NCBI GenBank assembly: GCA_022764275.1
Contig: JALERH010000042.1
Location: 1-60,143, forward strand
Direction of reading: 5' to 3'
Source: Blautia sp.
GTDB lineage: Bacteria; Bacillota; Clostridia; Lachnospirales; Lachnospiraceae
Length of the DNA: 60,143 nucleotides
The position numbers and the translations under genes are program-made. Positions within the stretch are counted from its first letter, which is position 1; each line of letters starts with the position of its first letter. Below are positions 4,763 to 52,900 of this stretch, piece by piece. The notes beneath the pieces are model-generated. The model searched no databases, was not told the DNA's origin, and saw only the letters and a program-made list of their open reading frames with translations.

Positions 4763-5227
4763 TTGACTCTAGCCGCAGAGGACTGCGGCGGTATATGGGG
4801 ATTTTATGATTATTTAGATGAGGCCACACCCTTTGATATGGATGGTGTGAATCGTTTGCTGAGCACCTGGATCTACCCCGTAAATAACCACAGCGACCTG
4901 GAAGATGAGGAAGATCTGAAAGAACTGGCCCAGATTCACCATTTCACCCGGTACAGCCGTTTTAACAAAAAAGAACTGGCCAAATGGCTGAAAGACAGTT
5001 TTCTGGAAACGCAGTTTATGAAAAACCTTTTGCAAGCCTCCACAGAAGAGGAATTCCGTACTTTTGAAAACGCGATAAAAGAAAACGGAATCATGATTCC
5101 TGAAGAACTGCTGAGCGAATCTCTGCTGCTCTGTACTTACGGCGCTTATGATCCTTATTGTTTTATTGATGATATGATCGTGGACAGCAATCGAAAAATA
5201 ACAACAATCGTCCGCCACAATTTTTAA
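4763..5227 (+). pseudogene. pRiA4b ORF-3-like protein, N-terminally truncated
   Basis: The frame contains AAEDCGGIWGFYDYLD, resembling the conserved PPEDCGGxWGY block of the plasmid pRiA4b ORF-3 (IS1096 TnpR-like) family. The upstream half of that domain, with its usual WRR motif, is missing. The only nearby start is a TTG without a convincing ribosome binding site, and the frame stays open upstream without recognisable sequence. The last 110 residues are an acidic helical extension I do not recognise. It could still be expressed as a 154-aa protein. Confidence 0.5.
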
Positions 5228-5321
5228 CAGGAATCCGTATTTTCTGTTAAAATCAGTTGGTGGATTATATATCATTTCTTTGCTAAAATATGTTAAAAAT
5301 CATTGCAAAGGTGGTATATGT

Positions 5322-6392
5322 ATGAGAAAATATTACATAGACAATATTCGCTGGATCACCATCGTTCTCGTGGTCATCTATCATGTGATCTACATGTTTA
5401 ATTCCGTCATAACAGAGGGTGTGATCGGCCCTGTCACGACGGTTCACTGGCAGGACACGATTCAGTACATCTTTTATCCATGGTTTATGGTCATTCTCTT
5501 TCTTATCAGCGGAATGTGTGCAAAGTATTATCTGGATAACCACAGCGACAAAGAATTTATCCGTGCGAGAACACGCAGGCTCCTGGTACCATCTACCATC
5601 GGTGTATTTGTATTTGGATGGATTCAGGGATATTTTAATATGGCAATCAGCGGTGCGTTCCACAATCTCCCGGAGACACTCCCTGTTTTTATATTATATC
5701 CGATCATGTCTGTTTCCGGCATCGGAGTGCTCTGGACCATTCAGGTCATGTGGATTCTGTCCATGATTCTGGTACTGATTCGAAAAATTGAAAAAGGCCG
5801 TCTCGGTTCACTTTGCCCAAAAACCAATATGGCTGTACTGCTTCTTCTTGGAATTCCGGTATGGGGCGCAGCCCAGATACTGAATACGCCAGTCATCTGC
5901 GTATACCGTTTCGGCATTTATGGCTTTTGCTTTTTGCTCGGATATTATGTTTTTTCTCATGAAGAAGTCACAGACAGGCTGAAGAAGTATTGTATCCCTC
6001 TGCTGATCTTAGCCTGCATTCTGGCAGTTGTATATGCGAAAACTTATTACGGACAGGATTATGCACATGCCCCTGTGGTGAACTGCCCCCTGGCGATTGC
6101 CTATGCCTGGATCACCTGTCTCGCACTCATCGGATGCGCAAAGCGCTGGTATGACAGAACCGATACGGTTTCCTCATTCATGACCCGGAAATGTTTCGGA
6201 TTGTATATCTTTCACTATCTGGCGTTATCCGCAGCAGCATACGGACTGACCAGGTATACGGAGATCACCGGTGCTGCCCTTTACCTGTTGTCAGCAATCG
6301 CATCGTTCGCGGGAGGATTCCTTCTGTATGAGATCATCTCAAGAATTCCGTTCCTTCGATGGTGTGTATTGGGAATAAAAAAGGAGAAGTAA
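5322..6392 (+). CDS. acyltransferase family integral membrane protein
   Basis: A 356-aa protein with about ten hydrophobic segments. It begins YYIDNIRWITIVLVVIYHVIYMF, the pattern of acyltransferase-3 (OafA/WecH-like) proteins, with an early membrane histidine. Such proteins transfer acyl groups to cell-surface sugars or other exported substrates; the substrate here is unknown. The start at 5322 has AAAGGTGG upstream and gives the typical family N-terminus, whereas an earlier ATG adds an unlikely 14-residue leader. The stop codon is immediately followed by the ATG of the XRE-AbrB regulator, so the two are co-transcribed. Confidence 0.82.
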   Translation: MRKYYIDNIRWITIVLVVIYHVIYMFNSVITEGVIGPVTTVHWQDTIQYIFYPWFMVILFLISGMCAKYYLDNHSDKEFIRARTRRLLVPSTIGVFVFGWIQGYFNMAISGAFHNLPETLPVFILYPIMSVSGIGVLWTIQVMWILSMILVLIRKIEKGRLGSLCPKTNMAVLLLLGIPVWGAAQILNTPVICVYRFGIYGFCFLLGYYVFSHEEVTDRLKKYCIPLLILACILAVVYAKTYYGQDYAHAPVVNCPLAIAYAWITCLALIGCAKRWYDRTDTVSSFMTRKCFGLYIFHYLALSAAAYGLTRYTEITGAALYLLSAIASFAGGFLLYEIISRIPFLRWCVLGIKKEK

Positions 6393-6812
6393 ATGTTTCA
6401 AGATAATCTCATCTCACTCAGAAAACTAAATAACCTGTCCCAGGAAGAACTGGCAGACAGACTGAACATCAGTCGTCAGACATTGTCAAAATATGAGACT
6501 GGTGAGTCGCTGCCGGATATTGAGAAATGTAAAGCCATTGCAGATATATTTGGTGTTTCCCTTGACGATCTGGTCAATTATGAGAGTGCGGACTCCGGGC
6601 TTGGAGTTCCGCCCAGGGGAAAGCACATTTTCGGCATGGTCAAAGTGGGAGATAAAGGCCAGATCGTCATTCCCGCAAAGGCCAGAAAATTATTTCAGAT
6701 CGAGCCGGGCGATAATCTGATCGTACTGGGGGATGAAGCACAGGGGCTCGCCATTATTAAAGAAAAAGATTTTCTTGTTATGGTAGAGCGGTTTCAGGAG
6801 ATAGCTTTCTGA
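6393..6812 (+). CDS. XRE-family HTH regulator fused to an AbrB-like domain
   Basis: A 139-aa protein. Residues 5-60 are a Cro/CI-type helix-turn-helix (LRKLNNLSQEELADRLNIS and RQTLSKYETG). Residues about 78-125 match a SpoVT/AbrB swapped-hairpin DNA-binding domain (VKVGDKGQIVIPAKARKLF, then GD and LIVLGDE). Two different DNA-binding folds in one short chain suggest a dimeric regulator. It starts directly after the acyltransferase stop, which suggests it controls that operon. Its 3' end overlaps the convergent ogt gene by 35 nt. Confidence 0.85.
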   Translation: MFQDNLISLRKLNNLSQEELADRLNISRQTLSKYETGESLPDIEKCKAIADIFGVSLDDLVNYESADSGLGVPPRGKHIFGMVKVGDKGQIVIPAKARKLFQIEPGDNLIVLGDEAQGLAIIKEKDFLVMVERFQEIAF

Positions 6813-7311
6813 CATCCACACCTTCCAGCTCAAGCAGTCTGATTTTCTTTTCAATCCCCCCGGCATATCCGGTCAGACTTCCATTTGACCCAATCACACG
6901 ATGGCAGGGAATGATAATGGAAATGGGGTTATGGCTCACTGCGCCGCCTATCGCCTGTGCAGACATGCTGGCGCAGTTTCGCTTTTTCGCAATTTTTGCG
7001 GCAAGTGCTCCATATGTAGTAACTTGTCCATAGGGAATTTCCAGGAGCAGCCTCCAGACCTCCTGGCGGAATTCGCTGCCCCAAGGAGCAAGAGAAAGTG
7101 TGGAAGCATCAGGCCTTTTCCCTTCGAAATAAAGCTTCAGCCACTCTTTTGCCGCTTCCAGTACGGGAAGATCCCCCTTCTGATGCATTTCTTCTTTTAT
7201 GGTACTTTTGAAATATTTTTGTCCGTCCAGCCAGACTCCTGACAGATGCTCTCCATCACTGGCAAGAGTTATCCCACCCAGAGGAGATTCAAAATGTGTC
7301 TGATAATACAT
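6778..7311 (-). CDS. ogt: methylated-DNA--protein-cysteine methyltransferase
   Basis: A 177-aa suicide alkyltransferase that repairs O6-alkylguanine. The active-site motif IPCHRVIG has the acceptor Cys136. The N-terminal ribonuclease-like region and the DNA-binding segment (EVWRLLLEIPYGQVTTYGALA) are both present. It is the last gene of topB-ykgJ-ogt: its ribosome binding site AGGAGGG lies inside the end of ykgJ, and the gap between the two genes is 6 nt. Confidence 0.93.
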   Translation of the reverse strand: MYYQTHFESPLGGITLASDGEHLSGVWLDGQKYFKSTIKEEMHQKGDLPVLEAAKEWLKLYFEGKRPDASTLSLAPWGSEFRQEVWRLLLEIPYGQVTTYGALAAKIAKKRNCASMSAQAIGGAVSHNPISIIIPCHRVIGSNGSLTGYAGGIEKKIRLLELEGVDVRKLSPETALP

Positions 7312-46780: not shown

Positions 46781-47587
46781 TTATTGGAAAGTCCGATTTT
46801 TATATTCCAGTCTTATTTTATCCGCGATCAGCGCAATAAATTCGGAGTTCGTCGGTTTCCCCTTTCCTGTGCTTACCGTGTAACCGAACAATTCGTCAAT
46901 AGTGTCCATTTTTCCTCGGCTCCATGCCACCTCAATGGCATGACGGATTGCGCGCTCCACACGGCTTGGAGTCGTCTGGTGCTTTTTTGCAATGGTTGGA
47001 TAGAGAATTTTTGTGATGGAATTCAGCATTTCCATATCATTTACAGAAAGAATGATTGCATCTCTCAGATACTGATAACCTTTGATATGGGCCGGAACAC
47101 CAATCTCATGTATGATGTTTGTCACATCCGCTTCCAGATTTCCCTCCGTAAAGCCTGTGTTTTCTTCTCTTGGAAGCTGCCTGCTGACTTCCCGGAATTT
47201 CTTTTCTCCGATACGGCGGATATGTTTGATTCGATTTAACAGCATCTGATTATCAAAAGGCTTCAGCATATAATAATCGGCCCCGAGGTTGAACGCATCT
47301 TCTGTAATGCGCTCCTGCCCCACAGCGGAAACCACAATAAAGGATGGTACTTTTTTTATGGTACTGTCATGCGTAAAGCGCTCCATTACAGAAAGTCCAT
47401 CTACCTTCGGCATGATAATATCCAACACCACCACATCCGGTTCTTTTTCCCTGATAATATTACAGATTTCTTCTCCATTATGTGCTTTTCCAACCAATTT
47501 AAGGTCTTCATCCTCTTCGATCATACGACCCAGTACTTCTACCATTTTCTCGTTATCGTCTGCGATTGCCACATTTAATTTCTCCAT
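46781..47587 (-). CDS. spo0A: sporulation master regulator Spo0A
   Basis: A 268-aa response regulator. Receiver domain with acidic pocket Asp10/Asp11 and phosphoacceptor Asp56 ([12 protein letters not shown]); C-terminal DNA-binding domain from about 150 with [24 protein letters not shown] and the recognition region [18 protein letters not shown]. It controls entry into sporulation. AGGAGGAGAC precedes the ATG. spoIVB, the usual upstream neighbour, is absent here; a short HTH gene and lemA lie upstream instead. Confidence 0.96.
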
Positions 47588-47813: not shown

Positions 47814-48074
47814 TCAAGTTTTCTTACCGGAAACCAGTTCCAAACGGTACCCTCTTTTCTGCCAGTCATAAATGATCGCATTTAACACGCCTGTGTTCTC
47901 TGCATCCGAAACAAGGAAATCGCGTATATCATCAATATCCCGTTGAATGCTGCGTTCATTCACATCGTAAATGAGCGCTTCCTCATTCTTTCTCACAACT
48001 TCTCCTCTGACAAATTTCGAGTAAATGCCAAGGATACGGTCTATTTTTCCTTTTTTCTCTTTCACTTTATACAC
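47814..48074 (-). CDS. stand-alone HTH protein related to WYL regulators
   Basis: An 86-aa protein. Residues 8-52 (KIDRILGIYSKFV, NERSIQRDIDDIRDFL) match the N-terminal winged helix of clostridial WYL-domain regulators, and IIYDWQKRGYRLEL matches the segment just before the WYL domain. It then stops, so the ligand-sensing WYL part is missing. It overlaps the end of lemA by 8 nt and is translated from the same transcript. It may be a functional mini-regulator or a decaying one. Confidence 0.65.
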   Translation of the reverse strand: MYKVKEKKGKIDRILGIYSKFVRGEVVRKNEEALIYDVNERSIQRDIDDIRDFLVSDAENTGVLNAIIYDWQKRGYRLELVSGKKT

Positions 48075-48648
48075 CTCTCATATCCGTCTTTTTCTCCACT
48101 GCCTCCAGATACTCCCTCTGACGAAAACCAAAGATACCTGCCAGCAGCAATGTGGGAAATCTCCGAATTTCCCGGTTATACTTTGTCACGCTGTCGTTGT
48201 AAATAAGGCGGCTTGTGCACACCATTTTTTCGTAGCGGTCCAAGGCGTTCATGCCTCTGGCATAGTTTTCATCTGCTTTCAGCTTTGGATATCGCCGGGC
48301 TACTATATAAATACGCCCGAGAGTCTCGGAAATCACACTTTCCTGCTTCAAAACATCATACGGTTTAGATTTCGCCGTAATCACACTTTGGTGGGATTTG
48401 ATTGTTTCGATCATTGTCTGGGACTCATGGGCATCATATCCCCTGGTAAGGTTAAGCAGCACAGTCAAAGCGTCAAAACACGCGGAAAGCTGTACACCGA
48501 TCTGGCCCATTGCATTATTGATATTCTCATGCATGGTTACCAGCCTTCGGTGAACTGAAACGCCCCATCCCGCCAGGCATACTGCAATCACACCTATCAT
48601 TATCATTGCCATCCCCGTCTCCTTCCTTTTCTTCAAATATAAAGTCAT
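48067..48648 (-). CDS. lemA: LemA-family membrane protein
   Basis: A 193-aa protein with one N-terminal TM helix (about 13-31) and a long helical domain with LemA hallmarks: RRLVTMHENINNAMGQIGVQLSACFDAL, RYPKLKADENYARGM, RLIYNDSVTKYNREIRRFPT and FGFRQREYLEA. The role of LemA is poorly known. The first ATG has AGGAG 6 nt upstream but sits very close to the transcription start. An ATG 12 codons later with AAGGAG is an equally good start. Its promoter carries the same operator block as the LytTR regulator gene. Confidence 0.88.
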   Translation of the reverse strand: MTLYLKKRKETGMAMIMIGVIAVCLAGWGVSVHRRLVTMHENINNAMGQIGVQLSACFDALTVLLNLTRGYDAHESQTMIETIKSHQSVITAKSKPYDVLKQESVISETLGRIYIVARRYPKLKADENYARGMNALDRYEKMVCTSRLIYNDSVTKYNREIRRFPTLLLAGIFGFRQREYLEAVEKKTDMRGV

Positions 48649-48662
48649 TATGGCTCCTGTAT

Positions 48663-48734
48663 ATTATAAAGCGCCCCCTTTTTTCAAGGGAGCGCCTGGT
48701 ATGAATCGTACTGAAATTGTATTGAATCGACAGT
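48663..48734 (-). promoter_or_regulatory. lemA promoter with LytTR-type operator
   Basis: A 39-bp block (48696-48734) matches the one before the response regulator with two differences. It contains CGATTCA twice (minus strand; 48723-48729 and 48702-48708), 21 bp apart. TATAAT (48663-48668) follows after exactly 33 bp. No good -35 box is present, fitting an activator-dependent promoter. A GCGC-rich hairpin lies between operator and -10 and may terminate the kinase transcript. Confidence 0.7.
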
Positions 48735-48738
48735 CTGC

Positions 48739-50010
48739 TCAAAGCGACATTCTCAGAATAAATTTTCCTTCCCTGGTAAAAAATGTGTAAACACCTCCGT
48801 ACCGTTCCACAATAGCACAAATACTCTGCACTCCAATTCCATGGCCTGGACGGTCGGACACGGGAATTCCCTTTTCAAAGCGGATATCATCTGAACAGGG
48901 ATTTACAATCTGCAAAAAAAGCCTGTTTTTCTGTTCATAAAACTCAACATCAATCGTGCAGGTATTTCCCTCAGCAGCAAAAGGCAGGCAGGCATGAAGA
49001 GCGTTTTCCAGTGCATTGGAAAAAAGCACACACAGATCACTGTCCGATATGATCATAAAGGCGGGGAGTGTTCCCTTTATGTTCATGGTAATCCCTGCCT
49101 GCTTTGCCCTCCCTGAAAAGGCTGACAGAATCAGGTTGGCCGCTTCGTTTTCACAATACCTCTGTACCTTCTGGGTTTCAATTTCCCTGCAGATATCCGA
49201 GATATAGGACAATGCCAGTTCATCCTGCCCATTGCCAATACAGCTGGACAGATATTGAAGATGATGCCGCAGATCATGGCGATACCTTGCGGCAAGAGCC
49301 TGAGATTCCCGAAGGACATCAATTTCCCGTACTGCCTGGGCAAGCTGGATTCCCAGACTGTTCTGTACCTGCTGTAGACGGCTTCTCTCCTGTTCTTTGG
49401 CGGAACTGTACAGCAGGAATGCCAGATAGGCCACACAGCACACAAAAGGCATAAATTCCACTATGACCGGATTCCCGCTGTAAAGAAGGTCCGTGTATAC
49501 CTGCGTCAGATAATCAAATCCGTAATACAGAGCCGGAATCACACCGAATTGCAGCTGCTCTTTAGCAGGGTACTTCGATATTTTCCTTACAGAGGGAGCT
49601 ACAAAACGAATCAGCAGCAAAAGCACCGGAACCGTTACGACCAGTTCTATGATATCCTGCATCACCGCACCGCCGGACAGCACTTCTGCCACCAGCAGGG
49701 CAATCCAGCGCCGCAGCTGACAGCACAGGTAAGCGCACATAACAGAGACTGCTGACCATAACATTCTTCTGGTCAGGATGTATAATACCACCATTAATGG
49801 AAGATGAACGACGAGGGGATATATCTTCCTCAGAAATTGCGTATCCCAGAAATAATATATTGTTCCCTGAAAAAAAGGCAGCATTGCCATGGCAGACCAG
49901 AATATCCGGCGGCTCCGGCGGGTATGCAGCGTATCACAGAAGGACACAGACAAGACGATTCCGAATATGCTCACCGACACATCATTTAACAGGGATATCC
50001 ACACATTCAT
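48739..50010 (-). CDS. GHKL-type sensor histidine kinase (AgrC-like)
   Basis: A 423-aa membrane kinase. Residues 1-205 have about six hydrophobic segments as sensor, followed by a coiled coil and the phosphoacceptor His245 in RYRHDLRHHLQ. SNALENALHAC is the N box and GHGIGVQSI the G box of the ATP domain; this is the HPK10 class partnered with LytTR regulators. Its ATG overlaps the regulator stop by 4 nt. No AgrB/AgrD-type peptide genes lie nearby, so the signal is unknown. Confidence 0.92.
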   Translation of the reverse strand: MNVWISLLNDVSVSIFGIVLSVSFCDTLHTRRSRRIFWSAMAMLPFFQGTIYYFWDTQFLRKIYPLVVHLPLMVVLYILTRRMLWSAVSVMCAYLCCQLRRWIALLVAEVLSGGAVMQDIIELVVTVPVLLLLIRFVAPSVRKISKYPAKEQLQFGVIPALYYGFDYLTQVYTDLLYSGNPVIVEFMPFVCCVAYLAFLLYSSAKEQERSRLQQVQNSLGIQLAQAVREIDVLRESQALAARYRHDLRHHLQYLSSCIGNGQDELALSYISDICREIETQKVQRYCENEAANLILSAFSGRAKQAGITMNIKGTLPAFMIISDSDLCVLFSNALENALHACLPFAAEGNTCTIDVEFYEQKNRLFLQIVNPCSDDIRFEKGIPVSDRPGHGIGVQSICAIVERYGGVYTFFTREGKFILRMSL

Positions 50011-50741
50011 ATTGTCACCTTCCCGTCCTGGAAGGCATATTCCAGAAATGCATTTTTGATCTCATTATACTTTCCCCGGGGAATGGGAATTTCCGCCAAA
50101 CAGGACATGGTGATAGCGCGGTAAGAGATCTTCTGTACATATTCCAGATTGACCAGAAAGGATCTGTGCGGACGCAGAAAGTTCCCGTAATGTTCCAGCT
50201 GTCTGCCAAACTCATCCAGACTTCCGATACATTCCAGAACCTTTCCACTGGTCAGGTGGATAAATAAAGTACGATGGAATACCTCGCAGTATTCCAGCTG
50301 GCAAGGATCAATGCGGTGGATTCCGTTTTTGCAGCGTAAGATGAGACTGCTCATCTGTTCTTTTTGGCACGTCATGAGAACGGAGTCCATCAGGTGAAAA
50401 AAGGTCTCCTTTCTCACAGGCTTAAGCTGATAAAAATATGCTCCCACTGTATAGGACTCAACTGCAAACTCTGACGAGGAAGTCAGAAAAATAATCTTGA
50501 CATTTCTGTCATACTTTCTGATTTCCGCAGATGCATTGATTCCTGTTTCTCCCGGCATCAGGATATCCAGAAACAGGATATCATACCTGACACCTTTTTC
50601 AATCTCGGCCAGCAGATCAAAGGGGCTTTGAAAAGCCTTACAGTTCATCTGCTGACCGCGTTCCACACGGTATTGCTCAAGAAGCATACGAATCTCATTC
50701 AGTTCAGAGAGATCATCGTCGCAAAATGCTATTTCCACCAA
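50007..50741 (-). CDS. LytTR-family response regulator
   Basis: A 244-aa regulator. Receiver domain with acidic residues at 8-10, phosphoacceptor Asp59 (FLDILMPG) and Lys107; LytTR DNA-binding domain from about 135 (YCEVFHRTLFIHLTSGKVLECIGSLDEF, LRPHRSFLVNLEYVQKI). LytTR proteins bind paired direct repeats one or two helical turns apart and usually activate transcription. It is co-translated with the kinase and preceded by a matching repeat operator. Confidence 0.93.
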   Translation of the reverse strand: MVEIAFCDDDLSELNEIRMLLEQYRVERGQQMNCKAFQSPFDLLAEIEKGVRYDILFLDILMPGETGINASAEIRKYDRNVKIIFLTSSSEFAVESYTVGAYFYQLKPVRKETFFHLMDSVLMTCQKEQMSSLILRCKNGIHRIDPCQLEYCEVFHRTLFIHLTSGKVLECIGSLDEFGRQLEHYGNFLRPHRSFLVNLEYVQKISYRAITMSCLAEIPIPRGKYNEIKNAFLEYAFQDGKVTI

Positions 50742-50832
50742 ATCAGGTCACCTCTGTTCTTCCGTTTTCTACAATTATACTTTATCCTTTGTGTATTTTC
50801 AATTGCGCCGGCCGGAGGTTTTTACCAGTAAT

Positions 50833-50904
50833 ATTATAAAACTCCCTCGTCGTCAAATGGGGCGTCTGGTATGAATCGTACTGAAAATGTCTTGAATCGA
50901 CAGT
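50833..50904 (-). promoter_or_regulatory. response-regulator promoter with LytTR-type operator
   Basis: The second copy of the 39-bp block (50866-50904) has CGATTCA at 50893-50899 and 50872-50878 on the minus strand, 21 bp apart. TATAAT (50833-50838) lies 33 bp further on. The start codon is about 90 bp downstream. This predicts autoregulation. Confidence 0.7.
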
Positions 50905-51229: not shown

Positions 51230-51246
51230 ACATGGAGTCAGGTACC
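51230..51246 (+). repeat. dispersed motif, copy 2
   Basis: ACATGGAGTCAGGTACC followed by ATAAA. Related to the copies at 1.95, 52.8, 56.5 and 59.6 kb. It lies 88 bp before the nuclease gene. Confidence 0.55.
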
Positions 51247-51334
51247 ATAAACGAAGAAAAAGTTCCTGTTGAAATATCCTCATCAGTCTCCTATAATAAA
51301 TACATGGATTCCTCCGTTAAAAAGGAGGAGTAAA

Positions 51335-52240
51335 ATGTCAGAATGCAGGAAATTACAGGAACTGACCATCAAGGACAATTTCATGTTTGGAGCCGTGATG
51401 GTGGACGAGGAACTCTGCAAAGAGTTCCTGGAACTTGCTTTAGGATTTCGGATTGCAAAGGTAACGGTAAGTAAGGAGAAAAGTATCGTTTACCATCCTG
51501 AGTACAAAGGGGTGCGTCTGGATGTGATCGCCGCTGATGAGAAGCAGACTCATTACAATGTGGAGATGCAGGTACTCCGGAAGAAAAATCTGGGAAAGCG
51601 GAGCCGTTATTACCATAGCCAGATTGATATGGAGCTTTTGAGGACCGGAATGGAGTACGGACTGCTTCCGGATGCATATGTGATCTTCATATGTGATTTT
51701 GACCCGTTTTATAAGAAAAAATACAAGTATACTTTCGATACTGTCTGCAAAGAAGATGGTACCGTTTCCCTGGAAGATGGAAATCATACCCTTTTCCTCA
51801 GTACCTGCGGAGAAAATGAAGAAGAAGTACCGGAGGGACTTGTAAAGTTTCTGAAATATGTAAAGGCGGGACTAAGCGAAAGCACGGAGAATTTTCAGGA
51901 TGGGTTCGTTCAGAAACTTCAGGATGCGGTCAGAAATGTAAAAGCAAGCCGTGAAATGGAGGAGCGCTATATGCTGTTGCAGGAATTGCTCAAAGAAGAG
52001 CGGGAAGCCGGAAGAGCCGAAGGTAGGGCTGAGGGCAGAGCACAAGGTAGAGCTGAAGGTAGAGCTGAAGGTAAAGCTGAGTCAATACTCGAACTTTTAT
52101 CCGACCTGGGAGATATCCCGGAAGACCTTCAAAAGAGGATTTCAGTCGAGAAAGATCCCAATGTTTTGAAATCTTACTTAAAGATAGCCTCTGCTTCTAA
52201 GACGATAGATGAGTTTCGGAAACGAATTGATCAGCCTTGA
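51335..52240 (+). CDS. Rpn/PD-(D/E)XK nuclease family protein
   Basis: A 301-aa protein; ATG 51335 has AAAGGAGGAG upstream. The N-terminal 200 residues match the Rpn recombination-promoting nuclease / PD-(D/E)XK transposase family: TIKDNFMFGAVM at the start, catalytic RLDVIA (Asp63) and NVEMQ (Glu77, Gln79). A linker holds a six-unit GRAE repeat (residues 226-249), and a helical tail follows. Such genes vary between strains and are linked to mobile DNA, but many are domesticated. Confidence 0.85.
   Translation: MSECRKLQELTIKDNFMFGAVMVDEELCKEFLELALGFRIAKVTVSKEKSIVYHPEYKGVRLDVIAADEKQTHYNVEMQVLRKKNLGKRSRYYHSQIDMELLRTGMEYGLLPDAYVIFICDFDPFYKKKYKYTFDTVCKEDGTVSLEDGNHTLFLSTCGENEEEVPEGLVKFLKYVKAGLSESTENFQDGFVQKLQDAVRNVKASREMEERYMLLQELLKEEREAGRAEGRAEGRAQGRAEGRAEGKAESILELLSDLGDIPEDLQKRISVEKDPNVLKSYLKIASASKTIDEFRKRIDQP
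52010..52081 (+). repeat. 12-bp in-frame tandem repeat encoding GRAE units
   Basis: Six units of 12 bp (GGTAGAGCTGAA and variants) encode G-R/K-A-E/Q. Units 4 and 5 are identical, so the array can probably change length by slippage without shifting frame. Confidence 0.85.
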
Positions 52241-52832: not shown

Positions 52833-52850
52833 ACAGTGGAGTCAGGTACC
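52833..52850 (+). repeat. dispersed motif, copy 3
   Basis: ACAGTGGAGTCAGGTACC followed by ATAAAC. GTACTTAC lies about 20 bp upstream, as it does at copy 4. It sits 50 bp beyond the end of the antiporter gene. Confidence 0.6.
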
Positions 52851-52900
52851 ATAAACTCTCAAACTCTTCGCGAAGAATGGCATTTATTCTGAAGTAAGGC

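Follow-up and report, generated by a model that had tools for sequence, protein, structure and literature searches.

We identified a LytTR two-component system of the AgrA/ComE class in a 60,143-nt stretch of Blautia sp. DNA (the window), and the conserved arrangement of its genes and predicted operator makes it likely that this system drives lemA, the gene of a LemA family membrane protein. On the minus strand, the locus runs in the order operator 1, TATAAT, LytTR regulator, GHKL kinase, operator 2, TATAAT, lemA, a gene for an 86-aa protein, and spo0A. Its features are as follows:

50866..50904, minus strand: operator 1, upstream of the response-regulator gene, with CGATTCA half-sites at 50872-50878 and 50893-50899; its counterpart in relatives is found in G022 (L064:4897)
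50833..50838, minus strand: -10 box (TATAAT) for operator 1, set 33 bp from its proximal half-site; no -35 accompanies it
50774..50802, minus strand: second promoter-like site, TTGAAA-17-TATAAT (11/12), operator-independent and before the regulator gene, a consensus match only
50007..50741, minus strand: LytTR response regulator, 244 aa, TTG start (Pfam Response_reg 8.2e-14, LytTR 6.9e-13)
48739..50010, minus strand: sensor histidine kinase, 423 aa, with GHKL ATPase domain (Pfam HATPase_c_5 1.8e-16)
48696..48734, minus strand: operator 2, placed right after the kinase stop and upstream of lemA, with half-sites at 48702-48708 and 48723-48729
48670..48696, minus strand: hairpin of 11 unbroken pairs (two G-T), between operator 2 and its -10
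48663..48668, minus strand: -10 box (TATAAT) for operator 2, again 33 bp from the nearer CGATTCA
48067..48648, minus strand: LemA family membrane protein, 193 aa as called (Pfam LemA 1.8e-29)
47814..48074, minus strand: 86-aa protein, overlapping the end of lemA (Pfam: no match)

The regulator combines receiver and LytTR domains and adjoins a GHKL-type kinase, and paired direct repeats about 21 bp apart lie at a fixed distance upstream of the target promoters, an arrangement that places the system in the AgrA/ComE class. Judged by eye, the N-terminus of the kinase is probably membrane-located. Membership of the LemA protein in its family (PF04011) is clear, at 103 bits against a cut-off of 26.2. 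The true start of lemA is likely an internal ATG at 48612, behind AAGGAG; this start is favored because initiation at the first ATG would mean a leader some 8 nt long, and also by the ribosome site and the N-termini of the relatives.

The two operators are 39-bp blocks identical at 37 positions, each with CGATTCA twice at a pitch of 21 bp (CGATTCA-N14-CGATTCA, spanning 48702-48729 and 50872-50899). Re-extraction from the sequence bore out to the base the geometry given in an earlier note on this DNA, namely two differences, a 21-bp pitch, and TATAAT 33 bp on. The flanks agree at only 19/30 positions on the promoter side and 6/30 on the other, so the pair is not a long duplication. Within the window, the two blocks are the only perfect matches to the repeat pattern; at up to three mismatches there are six matches against a mean of 8.1 in shuffles, and such weak matches are therefore uninformative. 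The whole 2.63-Mb assembly likewise holds two perfect sites and no many-copy spread, with one further place at one mismatch and 15 at two. A degenerate extended pattern searched genome-wide at up to three mismatches returned the same two sites alone, as did a consensus derived from relatives at the same tolerance (typed after viewing the relatives' sites and differing from each window site at three positions), with none in the reversed control. A chance repeat was rejected on the basis of these two lone copies with unduplicated flanks. The assembly is 92.3% complete, so further genomic sites could be missing from it.

The operator downstream of the kinase gene is a recurrent feature of related loci. 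A regulator search at E<=1e-30 matched 40 of 200 genomes of the family, and among those 200, besides G000, G174, G022, and G056 alone reach at least 60% regulator identity. Scanning genome contigs for the regulator gave 16 loci, ten of which (L046-L055) have a best-segment identity of 66-76%, and G340 (63%) and G315 (60%) were added via the pattern search and further regulator comparison. L047 and G174 look like one record and were counted once, leaving 15 loci: the window, L046-L055, G022, G056, G315, and G340. A kinase match adjoins the regulator in all 15, including L055, in which the regulator gene is broken between two frames. An operator lies just 3' of the kinase gene in 13 of the 15, the window included, some copies being degenerate: that of L053 has a worn left half-site (18.8 bits), that of G340 (L097) scores 18.5 bits, and that of G315 (L101), located by reading the sequence, keeps half-sites and distances around a replaced spacer. 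No recognizable after-kinase operator is present in L052 or G056, and no LemA was seen there.

We aligned 25 operator sites from 13 genomes, including copies beyond the after-kinase position; these sites are not independent, since extended sequence is common to L050, L051, L053, and L054. Of the 14 positions counted, eight (T3, T4, C10, G18, C21, G22, T24, and T25) are invariant in all 25. The relatives thus keep the order LytTR regulator, GHKL kinase, operator, lemA, together with the half-site pitch and the distance to the -10, and the lemA-side block is conserved. This conservation, along with extra copies that precede similar genes, supports the earlier proposal of a LytTR-type operator.

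The promoter elements behind the operators are equally constant. A -10 matching at least 4/6 positions lies 32-33 bp downstream of each of the 25 sites, and 20 of them reach at least 5/6 at that distance, as against 2% of shuffles; the sites were chosen without use of the -10. The single best -10 match falls away from the expected place at three of the 25 sites, two of which (L046:3180 and L051:2989) have a better one at 42 bp. The earlier statement that there is no good -35 box holds for the window sites and for the alignment as a whole, in which the slot (set for a -10 at 33) matches TTGACA at 3/6 positions or fewer in all 25. The slot does carry a conserved CC..TT, around positions 40-44 from the first base of the distal CGATTCA, with C at position 40 and T at position 43 in 23 of 25 sites each.

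A hairpin is nested between operator 2 and its -10, with a predicted fold of -20.5 kcal/mol (z -5.5). Similar hairpins accompany the after-kinase sites of L050, L051, L053, and L054 (z -5.4 to -8.8), and those of L055, L099, and the other L053 copy are weaker (z near -3). At L051:850, the predicted fold is -18.5 kcal/mol (z -2.5), and none of the remaining 16 of the 25 sites falls below -2. Lying behind a gene end, the operator-2 hairpin may terminate the regulator-kinase transcript from within the lemA promoter. A weakness of the terminator reading is that only a short T run follows the hairpin, and a terminator scan of the window did not list it.

We propose that the membrane GHKL kinase would phosphorylate the LytTR regulator, a dimer of which would bind both half-sites, whose CGATTCA cores 21 bp apart face the same side of the helix. 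The bound dimer may then recruit RNA polymerase to a promoter with a good -10 and no -35, switching on lemA and the genes co-transcribed with it. In the window genome and in G022, the operator copy before the regulator gene could add an optional positive feedback loop. Repression at these boxes, or action at one box alone, is a conceivable mode for such a regulator, as AgrA is described as lowering bsaA expression from a site that closely follows the bsaA promoter (PMC4227749, in the part consulted). Here, however, the box lies upstream, no usable -35 is present in 25/25 sites, and the -10 sits at a near-constant distance, which is the arrangement expected of an activator, and we consider repression or one-box action improbable.

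The boxes might instead belong to another DNA-binding protein, such as a WYL-like helix-turn-helix (HTH) protein or a different LytTR regulator, and the HTH gene, which overlaps lemA at its end and probably shares an operon with it, is a natural candidate. Yet the operator persists in the loci of relatives that have no HTH match, the only match among eight other genomes lies within a full WYL protein on another contig, and five of the six genomes (of 397) that match the operator pattern carry a close regulator, the match in the sixth (G304) falling inside a reading frame; we therefore regard this explanation as quite unlikely. The near-identity of the window copies could also reflect a repeat element or a recent duplication without regulatory role. 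That explanation is very remote given two unduplicated-flank copies genome-wide and given G315, which retains half-sites and distances despite its changed spacer and a regulator of only 60% identity. Activation of lemA by the LytTR regulator remains our preferred reading.

The earlier note had gone further, predicting a self-activating switch with lemA and the HTH gene as its output, and this held in part. An operator precedes the regulator gene in the window and in G022 (L064), two of the 15 loci, and is absent from the others within the 400 bp searched upstream (118 bp for G056, whose wider locus, L065, shows none). Self-activation as a general property is therefore rejected. Promoter matches of 10 of 12 consensus positions occur within 250 bp upstream of the regulator in four of the other 14 loci, and the TTGAAA-17-TATAAT site of the window may serve basal expression. 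With operators before only 2/15 regulators and separate promoter-like sites, feedback can be no more than an optional extra on top of basal expression.

As to the output, LemA recurs and its HTH partner does not: no match to the 86-aa protein was found beside the operator in the loci of relatives, and the HTH as part of a conserved output is rejected accordingly. The protein resembles the N-terminal HTH part of WYL regulators, with 45% identity to that part of a WYL-domain protein in G174, its one match in the eight other genomes searched. A single-sequence fold prediction was poor (mean pLDDT 53.9). Immediately behind the lemA-HTH pair and on the same strand lies spo0A (46781-47587), so transcription from the operator promoter could run through into it.

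Of the 15 orthologous loci, 11 encode LemA (Pfam-checked for five); it was not seen in L052, L055, G056, or G315, for L052 and L055 within the fetched stretch. That it was not found in L055 and G315, which do have an operator, indicates that the target set varies. Approached from the other side, a close LemA (E<=1e-35) occurs in six of the 200 family genomes (G000, G022, G174, G127, G164, and G103), and a regulator match lies within about 4 kb of it in all of these except G103; the linked regulators of G127 and G164 are 39% identical each. G340 is a further linked case from outside the 200-genome sample, in a set of 44 genomes chosen mostly for regulator matches. In G103, which has a close LemA (52%) and no regulator at E<=1e-30, the 14 kb around LemA contain neither a regulator match nor an operator scoring at least 12 bits. 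We therefore reject the use of LemA to mark the system, which LemA does not need, and we describe the linkage as strong but not exclusive. Control of lemA in the window locus does not depend on exclusivity, so G103 leaves the likelihood of that claim unchanged. At L107 of G103 (4935-7226), the LemA gene is followed by a larger, envelope-like gene with a signal-like N-terminus.

Multiple other genes were found behind operators in the relatives. Clostripain-family proteases (Peptidase_C11), which are secreted, are encoded behind operators in L046, L050, L051, G315, and L098, the last being a second cluster in G340. A DUF2207 gene stands behind the operator in L055 and further downstream in L048, a TM2 gene behind that of L046, and genes for Big_2 proteins in L051 and L053, while SPFH/Band_7 and TPM proteins appear further along the run of genes in one genome, G315. 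Two operator copies lie on contigs other than that of the regulator: on G340 contig 22 (L098), an operator of its own precedes a lipoprotein-LemA-C11 series in which the LemA reading frame is cut short, and on G174 contig 36, a copy precedes an ion-transport gene. The lipoprotein label is a reading of N-termini by eye, a Yip1 match in G022 falls below its cut-off, and in L047 and L048 one operator has no assigned first gene behind it. In the window genome, the regulator gene and lemA, the latter together with the small HTH gene, are the only outputs observed. Taken by its protein families, the operator gene set looks like a cell-envelope regulon, which would give the system a role in the envelope.

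A family-wide search for the operator pattern matched six of 397 genomes, with two hits in all in the reversed-pattern control (G039 and G101). G000, G022, and G174 have two or three sites each and a close regulator orthologue, which five of the six matching genomes carry. The single match in G304 (L102, 20.8 bits) overlaps a called reading frame, as does the G315 contig 14 match (L100, 23.3 bits), and both probably arose by chance; the single match in G340 (L098) is believable as a real target. The after-kinase operator of G315 was missed by this search owing to its different spacer. At E<=1e-60, the regulator is found in two of 291 genomes sampled from the class (G000 and G022), both in the family. 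Loci L046, L047, L052, and L053 are labelled Lachnospiraceae, yet L048 and L055 are labelled Oscillibacter, so the system may reach beyond the family. A genome of the same genus, G263, has neither a close regulator (best 31%) nor a close LemA (24%), which marks the system as accessory.

More divergent systems may share the geometry with a changed half-site. In G164, perfect 10-base repeats at a pitch of 21 occur in the interval from lemA to the regulator gene, and the -10 matches that face lemA are weak; a looser pair in G127 was read by eye and was not flagged by a scan for pitches of 20 to 22, among whose listed matches many are A/T-rich and look like chance. In G174, the locus of a paralogue (L063) carries a 9-base repeat at a pitch of 21 with TATAAT 33 bp on, and no gene of at least 70 aa directly behind it. 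We consider these repeats suggestive of a common design.

LytTR Regulatory Systems consist of a LytTR protein without a receiver, paired with a membrane protein that holds the regulator back. The regulator described here has a receiver domain and a histidine kinase and so falls outside that group, although systems of the HdrRM and BrsRM type are similar in their LytTR activator, direct repeats, and positive feedback (PMC6193735). In the same source, as far as consulted, LytTR direct repeats are mostly separated by 12 bp and lie some 10 bp ahead of the -35, and positive feedback is described (PMC6193735); SilA uses 10-bp repeats with an 11-bp spacer (PMC2766830). An AgrA dimer binds paired direct repeats at promoters whose spacing is suboptimal (PMC4227749). 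The promoters of AgrA, ComE, SilA, and HdrR resemble ours in having a LytTR regulator and direct repeats of 9-10 bp that are 11-12 bp apart; by our arithmetic, repeats about 10 bp before the -35 plus a 17-bp spacer correspond to 33 bp before the -10 (PMC6193735). They differ in that the half-site here is CGATTCA, CC..TT replaces a -35-like hexamer, and the targets are LemA and envelope-type proteins. The part consulted of one further paper (PMC6222199) concerns an OmpR-type regulator.

The closest precedent for a LemA connection is Fsr of Enterococcus faecalis, termed a paralogue of Agr (PMC3667150). In that study, EF0468, which belongs to the LemA family, showed a 3-fold change in one of the four comparisons of strains; by the paper's rule that all four strains be affected, it is not a direct FsrA target in the part consulted (PMC3667150). 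Our search of the open-access literature found no description of a LytTR-LemA coupling, most subscription papers and bioRxiv preprints lying outside its scope. As its geometry matches the published one, the mechanism would be ordinary for the LytTR class, and it is the target set centered on LemA that looks new.

We tentatively suggest that, in a small share of the sampled family, a LytTR system is dedicated to a LemA-centered envelope module that includes secreted clostripain-type proteases, lipoproteins, DUF2207, TM2, TPM, and SPFH proteins, with the CC..TT motif as what would be a further promoter element. If so, LemA would, for the first time in the literature searched, have a regulator whose operator is defined, and it would act alongside proteolysis at the surface or in upkeep of the membrane. 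The molecular function of this widespread membrane protein was called uncertain in 2013 (PMC3667150, in the part consulted). The predicted operator and the recurring gene set (clostripain-family proteases, DUF2207, TPM/SPFH) make that function a testable regulon question, and the lemA-side box conserved in most relatives examined offers a handle on when LemA is made.

Elsewhere in the window, a perfect 20-bp direct repeat (51233-51252 and 52837-52856) brackets an Rpn-family nuclease/transposase gene (51335-52240), and one more copy of the repeat, with one mismatch, is present in the assembly on contig 75.
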